Below are positions 49,695-59,029 of a stretch of 64,000 nucleotides of DNA, piece by piece. The notes under the pieces are model-generated. The model saw nothing but the letters and a program-made list of their open reading frames with translations. It was not told the DNA's origin and made no database searches. Numbering within the stretch: the stretch's first letter is position 1; every line of letters starts with the position of its first letter. The position numbers and the translations under genes were made by a program. Origin of the DNA: Pseudomonadota bacterium (GTDB lineage Bacteria > Myxococcota_A > UBA796 > GCA-2862545); assembly GCA_023954855.1 (NCBI GenBank), contig JAGSGY010000001.1, positions 62,001 to 126,000 on the forward strand, written 5' to 3'.

Positions 49695-50198
49695 TTAGCC
49701 GGCGATATCGCGACCCTTAAGAAACTGCATAAGCTTCCACGCGTGGGGCTCTGCCACCGCGTCTCCCCAGGTCGAGCCGCCGCCTTCGAGCAAGGCGAAG
49801 TCACTCGTCTTCATGATGACATGACGGCCACTTAGCCAGGCGACCATGGACTCCCACCCGGGGTTGTGGCCGACCAGCAAGACAGTCTCGAGCGCAGCGT
49901 CGACGGTGGGAAGCTCACGGCGCACGTCATCAACCCCCGCATGGTAGAGGTGCCGCGTGAACTGGGCCGGAGGTGGCGCGACAGAGAGCCCCTCCAGCAC
50001 ACCCTGGACGGTCATCCTCGTCCGTAAGCTGTCGCTCGAGAGGATGAGGTCTGGGACCCAGCCTAGCCCCTCGAGCGTCTCGCCGACATGAGGAGCTGTC
50101 CGCCGTCCCCGCTTGTTGAGTGGGCGTGCGTGATCGCTCGTGGCACCGCTGGCCCAGTCGCTCTTCGCATGGCGGAGGATGATGAGTCTGCGCTTCAT
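49695..50198 (-). CDS. SixA-like histidine phosphatase
   Basis: 167 aa. Histidine phosphatase superfamily: LRHAKSDWAS with the catalytic RHxxS-type block, LSSDSLRTRMT, and the second His in VLLVGHNPGWESMV. SixA removes phosphate from phosphohistidine, for example on HPt domains. The gene overlaps the transporter stop by ATGA. A link with the kinase operon at 3439-8634 is possible but distant. Confidence 0.88.
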   Translation of the reverse strand: MKRRLIILRHAKSDWASGATSDHARPLNKRGRRTAPHVGETLEGLGWVPDLILSSDSLRTRMTVQGVLEGLSVAPPPAQFTRHLYHAGVDDVRRELPTVDAALETVLLVGHNPGWESMVAWLSGRHVIMKTSDFALLEGGGSTWGDAVAEPHAWKLMQFLKGRDIAG

Positions 50199-52366
50199 CC
50201 GACGAGCATCCCACGGAATGGGCCGGCGTTGCGCACCAGAAGCGAATCGGTCAGGCCGTCGAGAAGGTCCTTCAGACCCTGTGCGTAGGCCTCTTCATCA
50301 CCGGCGGGAGCAATGGACATGCCGAGAAGCACGAGCCGGGCCCCAATGGACTGGCGGCGAATCACATCCACTGCAGACTCGCCTTCGGGGCGCACAATCA
50401 CATCGACCTGCGCCTGAATGCGGATCTCCGGAAGCATCTGCTCGAACTCGGACCGACGCTTGTCGGCGGCCTCGGCGTCCTCGACCACTGACTTCAGCAC
50501 CAGAGGCGCATTGTGGAACTGCGGATCGAGCGTGAGCAAGTGGGCGAGCAACAGCATCAAGTCGCCGTTGCTCTCCTTGCCCTTCCACCAGATCACCAGT
50601 GGGCCGTCCTTCCGAGGGGCACGGTCACCCGGCCGGAAGATCATCGATGACTTCGCGAGGCCCGCGAGCTTGCGAACCACGCTGAGCTGCCGGCCAATGC
50701 GCGCCAAGCTCTCTTCCTTGGGCCAGCCAAGCATCGTCGTGTTGGAGGACAGACCAGCAAAGCCATGCGCCTGAGCCACCGTGATGATTCCAGGGGCTAG
50801 CTGTGGGACCGCCGCGACCTCGGCAAAGGCAAGCAGGCCCTCGCGCTCGAGAATCGCCTCGTTGCGCTGGAGAAGCACATCCGTGTCGACATGCTCATCG
50901 ATGTCTCCGAGACGAAGCGTGGTCACGGTGACGATGCCTCGTTCCTGCGAAAAGGCGCTCGCGAGCCGAACCATGTGAAGGTCCCGGGCGACGTCCTTGG
51001 CGAAGACCAGCAAGTGGGGCCGCCAGTTGCGAGGATCGTGAGCGGCATCGCGGAGGCGGAGCAGGGTGAACCGAGCCGCAAACTGCCAGAAACCGCTGCG
51101 CACATCGCCCCATGTGGCCTCGAGAGAGCGGCGAGACAGCCACCAGAAGATCAGGATCTCGACGACCAGAGCGACGACGCAGGCCATCGGGTTGATCGCG
51201 AACATGGCGATCAAGCAGCCGAGCGCACCAATCGTGCTGACCCACCACGGCACCCTGAGCGCCGGTCGGAAGGATGGGTCCCCCACCAGCCCCTCGACGG
51301 CGGCGACGGCGTTCAGCGCGCCGTAGGTCGTGAGGAAGAACACGGTCACCCACTCGGCGACGGCGTTGAGATCGCCGAGCAGAACCGCGATGAACGCGAT
51401 GACCGCGGAGAGGTAGAGCGCGGGGAGTGGTTCGCCCGTCTTCGGGTCGTTCTCGGCGAGAAAGCGCGGAGCCAGATTGTCGTTTGCAAGGGCCTGAAGG
51501 GTTCGAGGCGCGCCAAGAATGCTACCGAAGGCCGAGGAGAGCACCGCTCCCCAGAGTCCGAGCATGACGAACAGCGGCACCGCCGAGATCTCGGTCCAGA
51601 CGAGCTTGTTCGCCACAAGCAATTCAGGGGCCGCCCCAAAGGCGAGGAAGAACGGAACGACAAGGTAGACGACTGATCCCACCGCGACAGCGAGAAGCGT
51701 GCCCCGTGGAATCGACTTCCCAGGGTCCTCGAGGTCGCCGGACAGCGACACACCCGCGAGCACACCGGTCACCGCGGGGAAGAAGACCGCGAAGACGCTC
51801 CAGAAGCCTCCGTCCTCCCATGTGGCGGTAGGAAGCGGACGAGACCCCCACTCCACGCCCGCGGCAAGCGAGATGAGTGCCAGCACGATCAAGCCCATGA
51901 TCGGCAGCTGGAGCTTCAGTGCGAGTTCCGTGGACCGAGCGGCAACCGCGGATACGCCGACGACAATGACGGCAGCGAAAGGCGCAATCGGTACGCCAGC
52001 CCAGAAGATCTCGATCGACTCTGCGAGACCGTACGCGTACAGCGTAAGCGACAAAGTCTGCGAGAGGTAGAGCGGGATGCCAATGGCGCCGCCCGTCTCG
52101 AGGCCGAGAGAGCGCGAGATCAGGTAGTAAGCTCCGCCGCCTCCCACCTGCATGCTCGTCGCGAGCGAGCTCATCGACAGCGCGGTGATCAACGTGATCA
52201 GGTTCGCGATCACGACGATGGTCAGGGTGCCGTAGATGCCCGCATTTCCAACGACCCAGCCGAGTCGGAGGAACATGATCACACCCAAGATGGTCAACAT
52301 CGTGGGGGTGAAGACACCAATGAAGGTGCCGAGCTTGAGGGGGGCTGGACTAGCTTCTGTACTCAT
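50195..52366 (-). CDS. SLC12-like cation-chloride cotransporter / APC permease
   Basis: 723 aa. Amino acid-polyamine-cation fold, about 12 transmembrane helices in the first 440 residues, starting FIGVFTPTMLTILGVIMFLR, with the APC glycine-rich helix and a SLC12-type GGGGAYYLISRSLG. A large cytoplasmic C-terminal domain follows. Substrate unknown; cation-chloride or amino acid transport is plausible. Co-transcribed with the SixA-like phosphatase. Confidence 0.82.
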   Translation of the reverse strand: MSTEASPAPLKLGTFIGVFTPTMLTILGVIMFLRLGWVVGNAGIYGTLTIVVIANLITLITALSMSSLATSMQVGGGGAYYLISRSLGLETGGAIGIPLYLSQTLSLTLYAYGLAESIEIFWAGVPIAPFAAVIVVGVSAVAARSTELALKLQLPIMGLIVLALISLAAGVEWGSRPLPTATWEDGGFWSVFAVFFPAVTGVLAGVSLSGDLEDPGKSIPRGTLLAVAVGSVVYLVVPFFLAFGAAPELLVANKLVWTEISAVPLFVMLGLWGAVLSSAFGSILGAPRTLQALANDNLAPRFLAENDPKTGEPLPALYLSAVIAFIAVLLGDLNAVAEWVTVFFLTTYGALNAVAAVEGLVGDPSFRPALRVPWWVSTIGALGCLIAMFAINPMACVVALVVEILIFWWLSRRSLEATWGDVRSGFWQFAARFTLLRLRDAAHDPRNWRPHLLVFAKDVARDLHMVRLASAFSQERGIVTVTTLRLGDIDEHVDTDVLLQRNEAILEREGLLAFAEVAAVPQLAPGIITVAQAHGFAGLSSNTTMLGWPKEESLARIGRQLSVVRKLAGLAKSSMIFRPGDRAPRKDGPLVIWWKGKESNGDLMLLLAHLLTLDPQFHNAPLVLKSVVEDAEAADKRRSEFEQMLPEIRIQAQVDVIVRPEGESAVDVIRRQSIGARLVLLGMSIAPAGDEEAYAQGLKDLLDGLTDSLLVRNAGPFRGMLVG

Positions 52367-52411: not shown

Positions 52412-55183
52412 CTACTCGACGGTGGCGCGACGCCAAACGCCCTGCTCGGCGCGTAGGTCGACGGTCGGCCAGTATTCGAGATCGAGGCGAAGTGTCACGA
52501 CGCGCATGCTCCCATCGAGCAACACGGTCGTGAGGCGCACTGACTCGCGGTCGGAGAGGCCCCCAACCGCCTGTAGGAAGGCGTCGAGGTCCGGGGTGGC
52601 CTCGCCATCCACATGCGTGATTCGCCGTGTCGGGCGCATGCCGTAGCGTGAGCCCGGTGTGCCGTACCAGAGCCAGGCGATGTAGACCCCCTCCGGCGTG
52701 ATGCCCTGCTGTGCCGAGACATCGTGGTGCGGTGCGTGGAGCACCATGCCCGCCCAGGAGATGATGCGCTCGACGCCATCTGTGTCGAGCGCTTGAGGGG
52801 TGAAGCTGAGCTCCATCTCGCCACCATCCCGGTACACCAACGCCTTGAGTTCCTGACCACAGAGCGACCCGAGCGCCTCGATGTCCTCGAAGCGACTGAT
52901 CGGCTCGGCCTGCTCGACGCCGAGGCCAACGAGCAGGTCTCCCTCAGTGAGCACGTCAATCGCCGGCGCAAGCCCGTCGACTCGCTTCACCTCGAGCACG
53001 CGACGCCACCGGGGATCGAGCGCGACCAGTACCTTGGCCCTGAAGTCGGCCAGACCTCGCTCTCTCGCTTCTGCGAGAGGCACTGCGCCCAACTCAACCC
53101 CCAGACCGCAGCGCTCTGCCTCCACGCCGCGAACCTGAGCAGGTAAGAAGGTCGTGGGCAGGCCGCGGAATCCGCGCTCGCCGTCCGACGGATCAAGGAA
53201 GCTGGCCCACAGAGCTAGGGCACGGCCCTTCTTGTCGACAAGCACACCGCCAAGGCTCGGCACCGTGCTCACGAGATCGGTTCCCACGGCGTTGATGTCG
53301 CGGAAGCGCGGCGTTCCGCTGGCGGCGAGAGCGATGGGCTGAACACGCTCGACGGTGGTCTGGCTGCTCACGACCTGGTGATGCCGGTCGAGACCCACCT
53401 GCCAGAGCTTGCTTCCCGCATCGAGGGTCCGCTCGATGAACTCGACCTCACCCACGGGCGTGTCGCCAAGCTTCGCAGGGTCGTACTGAACCACCGCGGT
53501 GTTGTGGATCGGGTCGAGGTAGATGAGACGCCCTGGCACGCGAAGCGACGCGGCGAAGGTGAGCGTGATGTCTCCCAGCGCCACCGGAACCGTGTCTCGG
53601 TCGACGAGCACCAGCCCACGCTCGGCATCGAAGACGGTGCCGACCCCTTGGTAGTTGAAGTTTCGGACCCCAGCAGTGGAGTACGGAACGTCAAAGTCGA
53701 CCATGACCAGAGCATCGGCGATACGGGCTGAGACCTTGTCGGGAGCGGGAGGAGGAAGAACCTCACGCGCGGCCTCGCGAGGCGGTTCCGGTGCGGCCGC
53801 CGCCGCCTGACAGGGCCAGGATCCGTCGCTGTCATCGCGCACGCAACGGCGCATCGGGTACCAGGTGCGGTCCATCGTGACGACGTCGATTCGATCGTGC
53901 CGTCGATCGCTGATGGAGTGGCTCCGGACCTGAAAGCGCTGGCCGTCCGCCTTGGTCTCGAGCTCGGCCTGAAGCGCATCGAGGTTGGTCGTCGAGACGC
54001 CATCGATCGCGGTGATCACCACGCTACCGCCAACGCCGCCGCGGGACCACATATAGCCAGGCACGGCCACGTAGACGCCATCCAGTGGATGCGCATGGGT
54101 CCGAGCCTGGTGGTAGCTCAAGTCGTGGAGAACCCCCCGTCCGACCTCGAGGAAGTTCGAGGGCGTGACCGCGTGAAGATCCTGCACATCCAATGAGATG
54201 CGTTGGGTCTCACCTCCACGCTCGATCTGCAGCTCGACCTTTTCGCCGACCCGCTCATCGAGGCGGGCCTCGAGGGGAACGAAGCTTCCGAGAGGCTCGC
54301 CGTCCACTGCGACCACAACGTCTCCGGATTGGAGAACGCCATCCGCCGGTCCATTCGGCAACACCCGCTCCACCACCAGGGCCCCCGTGCCGTCCGGGAA
54401 GGACTCACGCAGCCCAGCTTCGGTGGAGTCCGAGAGTCCGAGCCGCCGGCACTCGTCGTACGGCCGGTAGATCAGGGTCGTCAGGAGCGTTCCGCGGGCA
54501 ACGGGCTCGTCCTCGCGAATCAGGTCGAGTGCCCGAACGACGCGATCGAGCGGCAAGTAGAAGCTCGAAGCCGCCTCTCGCGAACCGCCGGCATTCAGGC
54601 CGACCACTAGCCCCTGCTGGTCCACCACAGGAGAGCCCGAAGAGCCCCCTGATGTGCCTGTGGCAGCCTGTAGATAGAAGGTATTGAAGTCGTTGTACGT
54701 CTCGCGGCCGTAGCGCGGAGCCGCGCGGTCAAGGCGGGCGAGAGTGCTGTCGAGAATCGAGATCTTCTCGCCGGCGTCATTTCCGATCACCCGAATCGAC
54801 ATGCCGACCCGGGCCCGCTCGGGAGCGAGCTCGAGCTCGGGAAGCTCCATGAACTTCACCGCCCCCGGGTCGTAGCGATAGAAGCCGAAGTCGTGGACAG
54901 GGTCGCGGTAGATCGGCTCGAGGTCCAGCTCTTCATTGTTGAGCAAGACTGCCTCTGCGAGCACCGGGCCTGCGTGAACCATGTGACGGTTTGTGAGGAT
55001 GATCCCGCGCTCTGCGTCGACAACAAAGCCGGTACCGACGCTGTTGCCCGCATTCTCGGTATCGAAGTCGCGGGTTGCCGTGACCCTCAACGAGACGACG
55101 CCTGGAACGACCCGGTCCAGAGTCTCCTCCCAACTAGGCATGGTGGGCGCGGCGGCAGCGGTCAGTACGAGAAGAGCAAGCAT
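52412..55183 (-). CDS. Two-unit HtrA serine protease resembling Nma111p/Deg7, secreted
   Basis: 923 aa. Signal peptide MLALLVLTAAAAP. First trypsin-like unit: His in ILTNRHMVH, Asp in DPVHDFGFYRYDP, Ser in TGTSGGSSGSPVV. PDZ-like segments follow. A second unit begins near residue 490 and keeps GLVLVDRDTVPV and DPIHNTAVVQYDP but lacks the catalytic His and Ser. Blocks such as RVIGNDAGEKISIL, YNDFNTFYLQAA and KPYDECRRLG-like YRPYDECRRLGL closely resemble my memory of fungal Nma111p. The size also fits. Bacterial HtrA proteins normally have one protease unit. Confidence 0.85.
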   Translation of the reverse strand: MLALLVLTAAAAPTMPSWEETLDRVVPGVVSLRVTATRDFDTENAGNSVGTGFVVDAERGIILTNRHMVHAGPVLAEAVLLNNEELDLEPIYRDPVHDFGFYRYDPGAVKFMELPELELAPERARVGMSIRVIGNDAGEKISILDSTLARLDRAAPRYGRETYNDFNTFYLQAATGTSGGSSGSPVVDQQGLVVGLNAGGSREAASSFYLPLDRVVRALDLIREDEPVARGTLLTTLIYRPYDECRRLGLSDSTEAGLRESFPDGTGALVVERVLPNGPADGVLQSGDVVVAVDGEPLGSFVPLEARLDERVGEKVELQIERGGETQRISLDVQDLHAVTPSNFLEVGRGVLHDLSYHQARTHAHPLDGVYVAVPGYMWSRGGVGGSVVITAIDGVSTTNLDALQAELETKADGQRFQVRSHSISDRRHDRIDVVTMDRTWYPMRRCVRDDSDGSWPCQAAAAAPEPPREAAREVLPPPAPDKVSARIADALVMVDFDVPYSTAGVRNFNYQGVGTVFDAERGLVLVDRDTVPVALGDITLTFAASLRVPGRLIYLDPIHNTAVVQYDPAKLGDTPVGEVEFIERTLDAGSKLWQVGLDRHHQVVSSQTTVERVQPIALAASGTPRFRDINAVGTDLVSTVPSLGGVLVDKKGRALALWASFLDPSDGERGFRGLPTTFLPAQVRGVEAERCGLGVELGAVPLAEARERGLADFRAKVLVALDPRWRRVLEVKRVDGLAPAIDVLTEGDLLVGLGVEQAEPISRFEDIEALGSLCGQELKALVYRDGGEMELSFTPQALDTDGVERIISWAGMVLHAPHHDVSAQQGITPEGVYIAWLWYGTPGSRYGMRPTRRITHVDGEATPDLDAFLQAVGGLSDRESVRLTTVLLDGSMRVVTLRLDLEYWPTVDLRAEQGVWRRATVE

Positions 55184-55296
55184 CCTCGTCGCTAACCCGC
55201 TGCCGAAACCGGCGGGGGCGTTGCTCCAGACGCTTGGTCGAAAATTTTTCTATGCTCAGCCTAGACTCCGGCGCTACACAGTTCGCGGAGGCGAGG

Positions 55297-55479
55297 ATGC
55301 GTACCCAATTCCAGGCATTGTGGGCCGGGTTCATCAGAGACGAAGTCGGGGGACCGGCGGTCGAATACAGCCTCGTCGCAGCACTCATTGCGATGACGCT
55401 CTTGACCGGCTTGCTGATGATGAACAGCCGCATCGGGTCGACCTACTCCATCATCTCTACGAATCTCGACACGCAGTAG
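55297..55479 (+). CDS. Flp/Fap-type pilin component
   Basis: 60 aa, start chosen for GGAGG nearby. A short basic-polar head then FIRDEVGGPAVEYSLVAALIAM, the hydrophobic helix with the Glu expected in Flp pilins (xxDExGxxxxEY). Such pilins are made by Tad systems; no tad genes are in the window, so this may be an orphan. A longer form from TTG 55234 is possible but less likely. Confidence 0.7.
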   Translation: MRTQFQALWAGFIRDEVGGPAVEYSLVAALIAMTLLTGLLMMNSRIGSTYSIISTNLDTQ

Positions 55480-55571
55480 TTCCCGACCGCCCTTAGAACT
55501 GAATAGGCTCCCTGGGGTCGCGATAGCGACCGAAATGGGGCATCTTGCGTAAGCTGCGGGGCAACGGGAGC

Positions 55572-57836
55572 ATGATGAGTCAGCGGAATCGAGCCGGGAG
55601 ACCAGGCTTGCTCACCTCGGTTGTGGCAACTCTCGCCCTCTGCGCGGGAAGTTCGGCCTCTGCGCAGGCCCTCTCCTCCGACGTCGAGTTGATCCATCCC
55701 AAGGCATCCCCAGGCGCACTGCCCGGACTCGAGTCGTCCTCGCGCGACGAACCCGGGACATTCCGCGCTCAGACGTCCATGCAATTCGAGGACTCGCCAC
55801 TGGTCCTGTATGCCGCCGGCGATCGCGAAGAGCTCGGCGCCGTGGTTCACCGCCGTATCACCACGCACCTCGCAATGTCCGGGACCATCGCCAAGCGGTG
55901 GCGCATCGGCGGTTCACTTCCCCTTCACGGTCAGTGGGGATCCGAGGTTCCCGACCTCGCGGCAGACGGATTCGGAGTCGGTGACCTTCGGATCGATGGC
56001 TCGTTTTGGCTCGGACGCTCCACGATTGGCGACTTCACCGCCCACCTGGGCTTCGCGCTTCCGTTCGGGCGGCGCAACGCATGGATGGGCGACCGCGGGC
56101 CTCGCACCGAGGTCGGCGTCGCATATGCCACTGGTGTCCGCCGCACCGAGATTCACGCCGACGTCGCGCTGGATGCGCGGGGTGCATGGCACGAATCCTC
56201 GGGCATCTACGACCGCGGCTCGGCCTTGCTGATCAGCGGTGGCGTTCGCGCGCCGATCGTTCGCGACAAGCTCCATGCCTTCGGCGTCCTGTACACGCGC
56301 TGGGGCGGCGGCATCTTCGTCGGACGCGGCAACGACTTTGTGCTGTCAGCGCTCGCCGGTGCCAAGTACAAGCCCATCAAGACCCTCGACGTCGACCTCG
56401 GCATTGGTCGTGGCGTCACGCCTGGTGTCGGCACCACCGACATTCGCGTGCTCGCCCAGGTCAGCTGGCATCACACCCCGAAGCCGCCCGAGCCCGAGCC
56501 CGAGATCGAGATCATCGTCCAACGCGAAGACATCGAAGAGCCACCGCCACCGCCGCCGCCGCCGGAACCCACCGAGCCGCCGCCGGCCGAGATCGTCGGC
56601 GAGCAGGTCATCGTTACGGCACCCATCCTGTTCTTCGTGAACACGGCCGACCTGAAGCCCGAGTCGACGGAGGCCATGGAGGCCATCGCCGAGCTCATGG
56701 CCGACGACCCGCAGATCGGCCACCTCGTCATCGAAGGACACGCCTCTGCCGAGGGCACCTACGAGTACAACTACGACCTGTCCGCTCGCCGCGCTCGGGC
56801 CATCCACGAAGCCCTCATGGAGCAGGGCGTCCACAAGACGCGCATCTCCTACCGGGGCATGGGCGAGGTCGAGCCCATCGTCGAAGGCGAGGACGAGGAC
56901 GCGCTCGCAGCCAACCGGCGTGTTGAGTTCCACATCATCAACCGCCGCACCCCCGGAGACGGGCAACTCGAGCACGCCGAGAGTTCCCCTCTCCCGTGGT
57001 CCGGCGAGGACGTCGATACACCTCGGCCCGAGTGGTCCGAAGAGGTGCTGAAGAAGTACGAGGAAGAGCAGGCCAAGATCCAGAAGGCGCTCGGCCCGGT
57101 GATCGAAGACGACACCGACGACCAGTTCGCCTTTGACGACCCCGAGATGTCTGGCCCGATCCGCGTTCAGCTCCCGCCCGAAGCCCGAAAGCCACAGCCT
57201 GAGGTCAGCAAGCCGGTCCCCGTCGAGCCCGCTCCCGAGCCTGCGCCGACCCCAGAGCCCGAGACGCCCCCTGCGCCGGAGACGTCAGCGCCCACCGAGC
57301 CGACGCCACCGGTAGAGCCCGAGACTCCCGCTCAGTCGGGCCCGGAGCCGGACAGCACAGCCTCCACACCAACGGTCACAAAACCGGCCCCCGAAGATGC
57401 CGTTGCCGATGTCGACCCCACTCCGGTCGTCGTCAAGCCGGCTCCGTCCGCGACTTCGGTAGACCCTTACACGTTGAAGGTTTACGCGAAGTTCGTCCCG
57501 CCGTTCATGGCCCAAGCCGACTTGCTGCGCGACGCCGGTAAGCTGCCCGGGACGCACTATTCCCTCGCGCTCGACGCGGTGCTCGACGCCGAGGGCCGCC
57601 TGGTCAGCGTGAAAGCCGCCAAGACATCCGGCGTGGAAGCGCTGGATGGGGCCGCTATCCGCGCGTTCTTCCAGGCCCAGCCATTCGCAATACCACCGGC
57701 ATCCCGACTCGAGAATGGCCAGGTGAAGATCCACAACATTCGCTTGGAAGTGGAAGGAAGCGGCGTGGACGACCTCGCCGTTCCCGCGAGTGAGCGCGTC
57801 GACGACATGTTGGACCGCGACGGAGGTGGCCAATGA
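55572..57836 (+). CDS. Envelope protein: barrel-like domain, OmpA domain, Pro-rich linker, TonB-C-like domain
   Basis: About 754 aa from ATG 55572 (ATG 55575 also possible). Signal peptide ends SASAQA. Residues to about 315 are beta-rich, barrel-like. Then PEPEPEIEI and PPPPPPPPEPTE, an OmpA peptidoglycan-binding domain (LVIEGHASAEGTYEYNYDLS and RRARAIHEAL; YRGMGE), a long Pro/Glu linker, and a C-terminal domain like TonB-C (GRLVSVKAAKTSGVEALDGA). A TonB-like end in a protein that also binds peptidoglycan is unusual. ATGA overlap with the TSP3 protein gene. Confidence 0.78.
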   Translation: MMSQRNRAGRPGLLTSVVATLALCAGSSASAQALSSDVELIHPKASPGALPGLESSSRDEPGTFRAQTSMQFEDSPLVLYAAGDREELGAVVHRRITTHLAMSGTIAKRWRIGGSLPLHGQWGSEVPDLAADGFGVGDLRIDGSFWLGRSTIGDFTAHLGFALPFGRRNAWMGDRGPRTEVGVAYATGVRRTEIHADVALDARGAWHESSGIYDRGSALLISGGVRAPIVRDKLHAFGVLYTRWGGGIFVGRGNDFVLSALAGAKYKPIKTLDVDLGIGRGVTPGVGTTDIRVLAQVSWHHTPKPPEPEPEIEIIVQREDIEEPPPPPPPPEPTEPPPAEIVGEQVIVTAPILFFVNTADLKPESTEAMEAIAELMADDPQIGHLVIEGHASAEGTYEYNYDLSARRARAIHEALMEQGVHKTRISYRGMGEVEPIVEGEDEDALAANRRVEFHIINRRTPGDGQLEHAESSPLPWSGEDVDTPRPEWSEEVLKKYEEEQAKIQKALGPVIEDDTDDQFAFDDPEMSGPIRVQLPPEARKPQPEVSKPVPVEPAPEPAPTPEPETPPAPETSAPTEPTPPVEPETPAQSGPEPDSTASTPTVTKPAPEDAVADVDPTPVVVKPAPSATSVDPYTLKVYAKFVPPFMAQADLLRDAGKLPGTHYSLALDAVLDAEGRLVSVKAAKTSGVEALDGAAIRAFFQAQPFAIPPASRLENGQVKIHNIRLEVEGSGVDDLAVPASERVDDMLDRDGGGQ

Positions 57837-59029
57837 TCGCCCTGTTCCTCGCCCTCGTGTCGGTCGCCTTTGGGCAGGCCACCGACTGCACCGAGTCCCT
57901 CACCCAGGACTTGAACTGCAACACCATCGACGTGGCCGACGAGAGGCTCGTCGACGTGAACGATCCCGCGTGTGGCGCGAACATCGACCCGAGCACGAAC
58001 CTCCCCTACGAGAGCGCCGACTACTACTACGACTACTTCTCGTGGGGCTGCCAGTACTTCATGCTGCCCCAGGACCTCGACAACGACGGGTTCAACACCA
58101 CGGTGCTGCAGTACGTCGACCCCGACGGCAACCTCGACATCCTGGCGATGTTCGACTGCGACAACTGCCCAGAGGACACCAACCCGGACCAGGCCGATGT
58201 CGACTGCGATGACGTCGGCGACATCTGTGACAACTGCATCGACGTGCCGAACACCGACCAGGCAAACTCGGACGGCGACACCCTCGGCGACCTCTGCGAC
58301 AACTGCATGTTCGCCACCAACGAAGACCAAGCCGAGACCGACGGCGACGGCGTTGGCGATGCCTGTGACAACTGCCCTGGCCTGAACAACCCTGCCCAGG
58401 ACGACGTCGACATCGATGGCGTAGGCGATGCCTGCGATGGGTGTCCGTTCATCTACGACCCCGACCAGGGCGACAACGACGGCGACCTGCGCAACGATGC
58501 CTGCGACAACTGCCCGAACGTCGCGAACCCCGACCAAGCTGACATCGACGGCGACGGATTCGGCGACCTCTGCGATACCTGCCCCGAGGTCTTCAACATC
58601 GACCAAGAGGCCGACCGCGATGGCGACGGTCATCCCGACGTCTGCGACGTTTGCCCAGACGAGGCGAATCCCGATCAGGAAGACATGGACGATGACGGAG
58701 TTGGCGACATCTGCGACGTCTGTCCAGAGACCGCGGATCCGGGCCAGTGGGACTTCGACCAAGACGACATCGGCGATGCCTGCGACCTATGCCTCGACGA
58801 CCCGCGCGGTGACACCGTCGACACCGATGGCGACCTTGTAGGGGATGCCTGCGACAACTGCCCCGAGGACGAGAACCCCGAGCAGGGCGATGCCGACGGC
58901 GATGGCATCGGCGACATCTGCGACTCGGAAGACCGGCTCGAAGGTGGCGGACGCCTCTGTCAGACCGCCGAATCGAATTTCCTGTGGTTCGCGCTCGTCC
59001 TACCTGCGCTCGTCAGGCGGCGTAAGTGA
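57833..59029 (+). CDS. Thrombospondin type 3 repeat protein with MYXO-CTERM-like tail
   Basis: 398 aa. Signal peptide MIALFLALVSVAFG. About ten acidic calcium-binding TSP3 repeats with the core DxDxDGxGDxCDxCP, for example DGDGVGDACDNCPGL. The C-terminus has a Cys, a short hydrophobic helix and RRRK (SNFLWFALVLPALVRRRK), like the MYXO-CTERM sorting tail. Probably a cell-surface protein. Co-transcribed with the OmpA/TonB-C protein. Confidence 0.85.
   Translation: MIALFLALVSVAFGQATDCTESLTQDLNCNTIDVADERLVDVNDPACGANIDPSTNLPYESADYYYDYFSWGCQYFMLPQDLDNDGFNTTVLQYVDPDGNLDILAMFDCDNCPEDTNPDQADVDCDDVGDICDNCIDVPNTDQANSDGDTLGDLCDNCMFATNEDQAETDGDGVGDACDNCPGLNNPAQDDVDIDGVGDACDGCPFIYDPDQGDNDGDLRNDACDNCPNVANPDQADIDGDGFGDLCDTCPEVFNIDQEADRDGDGHPDVCDVCPDEANPDQEDMDDDGVGDICDVCPETADPGQWDFDQDDIGDACDLCLDDPRGDTVDTDGDLVGDACDNCPEDENPEQGDADGDGIGDICDSEDRLEGGGRLCQTAESNFLWFALVLPALVRRRK

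Follow-up and report, generated by a model that had tools for sequence, protein, structure and literature searches.

HtrA-type proteases built from two units, one of them catalytically dead, have usually been described from plants and fungi. Plant Deg7 (At3g03380, 1097 aa) is a stromal protein with the order PD-PDZ-PDZ-PDia-PDZ-PDZ, an intact unit 1, a dead unit 2 and a long insert between them. The study defining Deg7 explained it by past duplication and fusion of a gene, and reported, for AtDeg7 only, that the inactive protease domain mediates trimerisation (PMC3473262). Yeast Nma111p/Ynm3 (YNL123W, 997 aa), which has the same architecture, is nuclear, lacks a signal peptide and is linked to yeast cell death. 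A 2018 analysis grouped yeast HtrA with plant chloroplast proteases, assigned PDZ_1 to the fungal branch and placed some bacterial proteins nearer yeast HtrA than human HtrA (PMC5982838); a bacterial origin is therefore not a new idea. A search of mainly open-access literature turned up no paper describing a bacterial two-unit Deg7 form. DegP/DegQ proteins share the fold and the protease-PDZ-PDZ order of each unit, but consist of a single unit.

Here we analyzed a 64,000-nucleotide stretch of bacterial DNA (the window), in which an earlier note, made from the sequence alone, had recognized a secreted protease resembling Nma111p/Deg7. The single 923-aa chain that it described was borne out as one open reading frame with two HtrA-type units, and the gene lies on the minus strand (Table 1). 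The sequence blocks on which the resemblance had been argued (DPVHDFGF, GNDAGEKISIL, YNDFNT and YDECRRLGL) were all found in the translation. A chance or frame artefact was ruled out by more than 100 co-linear relatives.

Table 1. Features of the two-unit protease gene and its downstream neighbours (window coordinates).
Feature	Position	Strand	Basis or remark
Two-unit HtrA/Deg7-type protease CDS, 923 aa	52412..55183	-	ORF, Pfam
Hydrophobic N-terminus, residues 1-16, probable Sec signal	55136..55183	-	weak here, clear in relatives
Unit 1 trypsin-like protease domain, triad intact, residues ~18-230	54494..55132	-	Pfam Trypsin_2, fold
Catalytic His67	54983..54985	-	invariant 107/107
Catalytic Asp98	54890..54892	-	invariant 107/107
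Catalytic Ser182, within GGSSGSP	54638..54640	-	invariant 107/107
Unit 1 PDZ domain 1, residues ~236-335	54179..54478	-	Pfam PDZ_6/PDZ_2
Unit 1 PDZ-like domain 2 (PF12812 PDZ_1), residues ~338-436	53876..54172	-	Pfam
Unit 2 degenerate protease domain, residues ~483-690	53114..53737	-	hhalign, DegP profile match, AlphaFold2 fold
Asp530 replacing catalytic His	53594..53596	-	N/D/E/A among 107 relatives, His in none
Asn561 replacing catalytic Asp	53501..53503	-	invariant: bacteria, yeast, plant
Leu644 replacing catalytic Ser	53252..53254	-	variable position
Unit 2 PDZ domain 1, residues ~696-797	52793..53098	-	profile match, fold
Unit 2 PDZ-like domain 2 (PF12812), residues ~806-899	52487..52768	-	Pfam
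Amino-acid-permease (AA_permease)/SLC12-like transporter, 45 nt downstream of protease	50195..52366	-	same neighbour in L040, L041 (57-59% identity)
SixA-like histidine phosphatase superfamily protein, overlaps transporter	49695..50198	-	conserved in L041, L042, L044, L048

Pfam analysis of the protein identified Trypsin_2 at residues 50-196 (E = 2e-25) and PDZ_6 at residues 270-322, together with two PF12812 PDZ_1 domains above the cut-off, one in each unit (E = 7e-22). Within its own genome, PF12812 was confined to this gene; other trypsin-like proteins, some of them HtrA-like, were also present. Comparison of the profiles of unit 1 (residues 1-464) and unit 2 (residues 465-923) gave an hhalign probability of 100 (E = 5e-41, 430 columns), showing that the two units are genuine duplicates of each other. 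Against PDB profiles, unit 2 alone matched DegP (E = 1.7e-15). Structure prediction of the second unit, which the earlier note had suggested as a check, yielded an AlphaFold2 model with a pLDDT of 88.1 and a fold of one protease and two PDZ domains. This model matched full DegP/DegQ chains with Z of approximately 22; the rmsd was 3.8-5.3 Å over the protease and first PDZ domains and about 10 Å over all three domains, which we read as a difference in domain orientation. A search of the PDB by sequence found no solved structure of a two-unit member.

Subsequently, we compared the catalytic positions across 107 bacterial sequences, the window protein included. His67, Asp98 and Ser182 of unit 1 were invariant (107/107) and were likewise present in the working copies of both eukaryotic sequences described below, in agreement with the trypsin-like unit of active type first read from the sequence. 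Gly180, just before Ser182, was also invariant among the members examined. We considered it very unlikely that unit 1 has no protease activity and that the whole protein acts as a chaperone or binding scaffold: chaperone activity is described for HtrA proteins, yeast Nma111 among them (PMC4877387), and the full-length AlphaFold2 model (pLDDT 89.5) assigns low confidence to loops surrounding the unit 1 active site, but the invariance of the three catalytic residues and of Gly180 argues against this alternative. In unit 2, none of the 107 sequences retained the catalytic His, Asp or Ser at the corresponding position, and in the window protein D530, N561 and L644 stand in their place, so the second unit is degenerate, as had been claimed. 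The His site was occupied by N, D, E or A and the Ser site mostly by V, F, I, L or Y, whereas the Asp site was always Asn. Five further Pseudomonadota members, some very divergent, retained the unit 1 triad and the unit 2 Asn, one divergent member having Ser at the unit 2 His position; none of the 112 two-unit relatives examined had a live unit 2. L126 and L134 are very divergent Pseudomonadota two-unit members that have kept both the unit 1 triad and the unit 2 Asn, the unit 2 of L134 being only 17% identical to that of the window protein. The yeast and plant sequences have the same Asn, while the other two positions vary by lineage. This shared residue suggests that catalysis was lost before the bacterial and eukaryotic lineages parted. 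Moreover, random decay would not yield such invariance, and the invariance suggests a structural role for the Asn561 position.

For these comparisons, the yeast Nma111 and Arabidopsis Deg7 sequences were working copies rather than database records. The yeast copy has 997 aa and two PDZ_1 domains totalling 192 bits, and the Arabidopsis copy has the published length of 1097 aa (PMC3473262), findings that support the two copies. The window protein aligned co-linearly with the yeast Nma111 copy at 35% identity across 920 aa (E = 6e-176), and with the Arabidopsis Deg7 copy at 53% identity in unit 1 and 35% in unit 2. The plant copy resembled bacterial members (up to 56% identity in unit 1) more closely than it did yeast (43%). 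In contrast, E. coli DegP gave far weaker matches to the eukaryotic copies (E = 2e-12 for yeast and 4e-7 for plant), and the window protein, with two units rather than one, scored 101.5 bits on the DegP/Do family TIGR02037, against a curated cut-off of 416.2. In the unit 1 tree, built without own_L004, own_L001 and DegS because these formed very long branches when included, the window protein, its relatives and the working copies of the yeast and plant sequences formed one clade with 100/100 support, apart from DegP/DegQ-type proteins. The likeness to Nma111/Deg7 asserted at the outset is thus one of homology along the full length, with a shared order of domains and a matching loss of catalytic residues, as judged on these eukaryotic copies. 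An ordinary DegP or DegS is ruled out by the TIGR02037 score, the weak DegP match and the unit 1 tree; a placement among DegP/DegS proteins combined with a second half of unrelated origin, named in advance as the outcome that would speak against the likeness, is excluded by the unit 1 clade and by the hhalign match between the units. We define the Deg7/Nma111 family without reference to cellular location.

The same evidence bears on whether two ordinary DegP-like proteases fused in tandem independently in bacteria and converged on the Deg7/Nma111 form. DegP already has the protease-PDZ-PDZ order, and in some DegP proteins PF12812 weakly matches the second PDZ; nevertheless, the co-linearity of both units with the yeast and plant units, the common family blocks, the identical Asp-to-Asn change in unit 2 and the 100/100 unit 1 clade apart from DegP make such convergence extremely improbable. 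As candidates for a single-unit precursor, we checked PDZ_1-positive Pseudomonadota proteins of about 500 aa (L127, L128 and L130), and these were nearer DegP than Deg7.

The N-terminus of the window protein (MLALLVLTAAAAP) is short and atypical, without a basic residue after the start, so the Sec signal reported from the sequence is not clear-cut in this protein; however, the N-termini of relatives are clearly signal-peptide-like or lipobox-like, and those of L113, L124 and L125 are lipoprotein-like. We place the window protein in the Deg7/Nma111 family as a bacterial and probably periplasmic representative. Its signal-like N-terminus and short linker distinguish it from stromal plant Deg7 with its long insert, and probable export distinguishes it from nuclear Nma111p, with which it shares two co-linear units and PDZ_1 twice. 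We favour, with a probability of roughly 85%, an exported Deg7/Nma111-family protease in which unit 1 cuts under PDZ control and unit 2 serves as a pseudoprotease scaffold in envelope quality control. Our analysis establishes the architecture, the homology, the intact triad of unit 1, its universal loss from unit 2 and a predicted fold; export of this individual protein, proteolysis, oligomerisation and substrates are inferred. After export to the cell envelope, unit 1 would exert an HtrA-type cutting activity controlled by its PDZ domains, as expected from the family, while the unit 2 pseudoprotease and its two PDZ domains, by analogy with plant Deg7 (PMC3473262), may form a non-cutting scaffold for particle assembly and substrate capture. 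The protein would likely contribute to envelope protein quality control alongside the genome's ordinary HtrA-like proteins.

Next, we surveyed the distribution of the two-unit type. It was present in approximately 68 of the 237 genomes sampled from the window's phylum, inferred to be Myxococcota (rows with a best E < 5e-7, one or two being contig-end fragments). All 13 genomes of the window's family carried the gene, as did 24 of 29 in the rest of its order. About 5 of 398 Pseudomonadota genomes carried it, in a sample drawn around a known carrier. A genome scan recovered at least 362 relatives, of which the best 80, mostly metagenome-assembled and with some doubtful labels, belonged to Myxococcota and to Gammaproteobacteria such as Woeseiaceae, Steroidobacteraceae and Chromatiales. 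In the 14 control genomes, among them Caulobacter and Synechococcus, no match exceeded the cut-off. Viral spread was considered and rejected, as a search of IMG/VR returned no relative. Plasmids yielded only weak single-unit matches. The two-unit protease thus forms a family that is common among Myxococcota and in some Gammaproteobacteria rather than a rarity. Because the family is common and the link to the yeast branch had already been noted, we regard its novelty as moderate. The presence of this dead half across a broad bacterial family places the duplication and fusion before the bacterial and eukaryotic forms diverged, opens the origin of the eukaryotic enzymes to a phylogenetic test and provides simple bacterial systems in which to study the role of a pseudoprotease half.

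The earlier note had suggested that the protein might bear on a bacterial origin of the eukaryotic family; it does supply material for a phylogenetic test, but the trees fit more than one direction and donor. In the unit 1 tree, plant Deg7 nested with a Myxococcota sequence (92/89). Full-length unrooted trees split the yeast and plant sequences, yeast on a very long branch, from all bacteria (89/89 or SH-aLRT 92), and when plant Deg7 was placed at three positions among the bacteria, AU tests rejected none of them (p = 0.14-0.25). Other bacterial proteins lay closer to the eukaryotic members than the window protein did. At a little under even odds, we suggest that the eukaryotic Deg7/Nma111 proteins go back to an envelope protease of Myxococcota or Gammaproteobacteria whose unit 2 was already dead, with later loss of the signal peptide and relocation to the nucleus and plastid stroma; if so, the pseudoprotease arrangement arose in bacteria. 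The opposite course, in which bacteria took up a eukaryotic gene and added a signal peptide later, agrees with the separation of the eukaryotic pair in the full-length trees, although these are unrooted and thus blind to direction. It appears unlikely given that the family extends widely and deeply through Myxococcota and Gammaproteobacteria, each clade conserving its own neighbouring genes, that known eukaryotic members are restricted to plants and fungi, and that the plant protein nests among Myxococcota in the unit 1 tree.

Finally, we examined gene neighbourhoods. In the window's clade, the protease gene is followed by the permease and histidine phosphatase genes; L041 has the full set, and L040, L042, L044 and L048 each have part of it. 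One Myxococcota group has hom-thrC upstream and mgtE downstream, and 48 gammaproteobacterial loci carry glycine-cleavage genes within 3 kb upstream. Contexts that are stable within clades and different between them fit vertical descent of a housekeeping gene; being clade-dependent and mostly metabolic, they carry little information on substrate. An M23 (LytM-type) murein-peptidase gene adjoins the protease gene in 24 of 80 loci, which fits an envelope role; in most of these 24 gammaproteobacterial loci it lies directly downstream, and the mechanically called frames overlap in 21. In these loci (L055, L058, L060, L061 and 20 others), the M23 gene shares the strand of the Deg7-like gene that it follows and in most cases overlaps, an arrangement suggesting that an envelope protease and a murein hydrolase are expressed together. 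On the other side of the protease gene in the window, and divergent from it, lies a small Flp/Fap pilin-like open reading frame that falls below the Pfam cut-off (55234-55479, plus strand). Further along, an OmpA-domain protein (55545-57836) adjoins a thrombospondin type 3 repeat protein (57833-59029, plus strand), whose C-terminal hydrophobic stretch ends in RRRK, a possible sorting tail.
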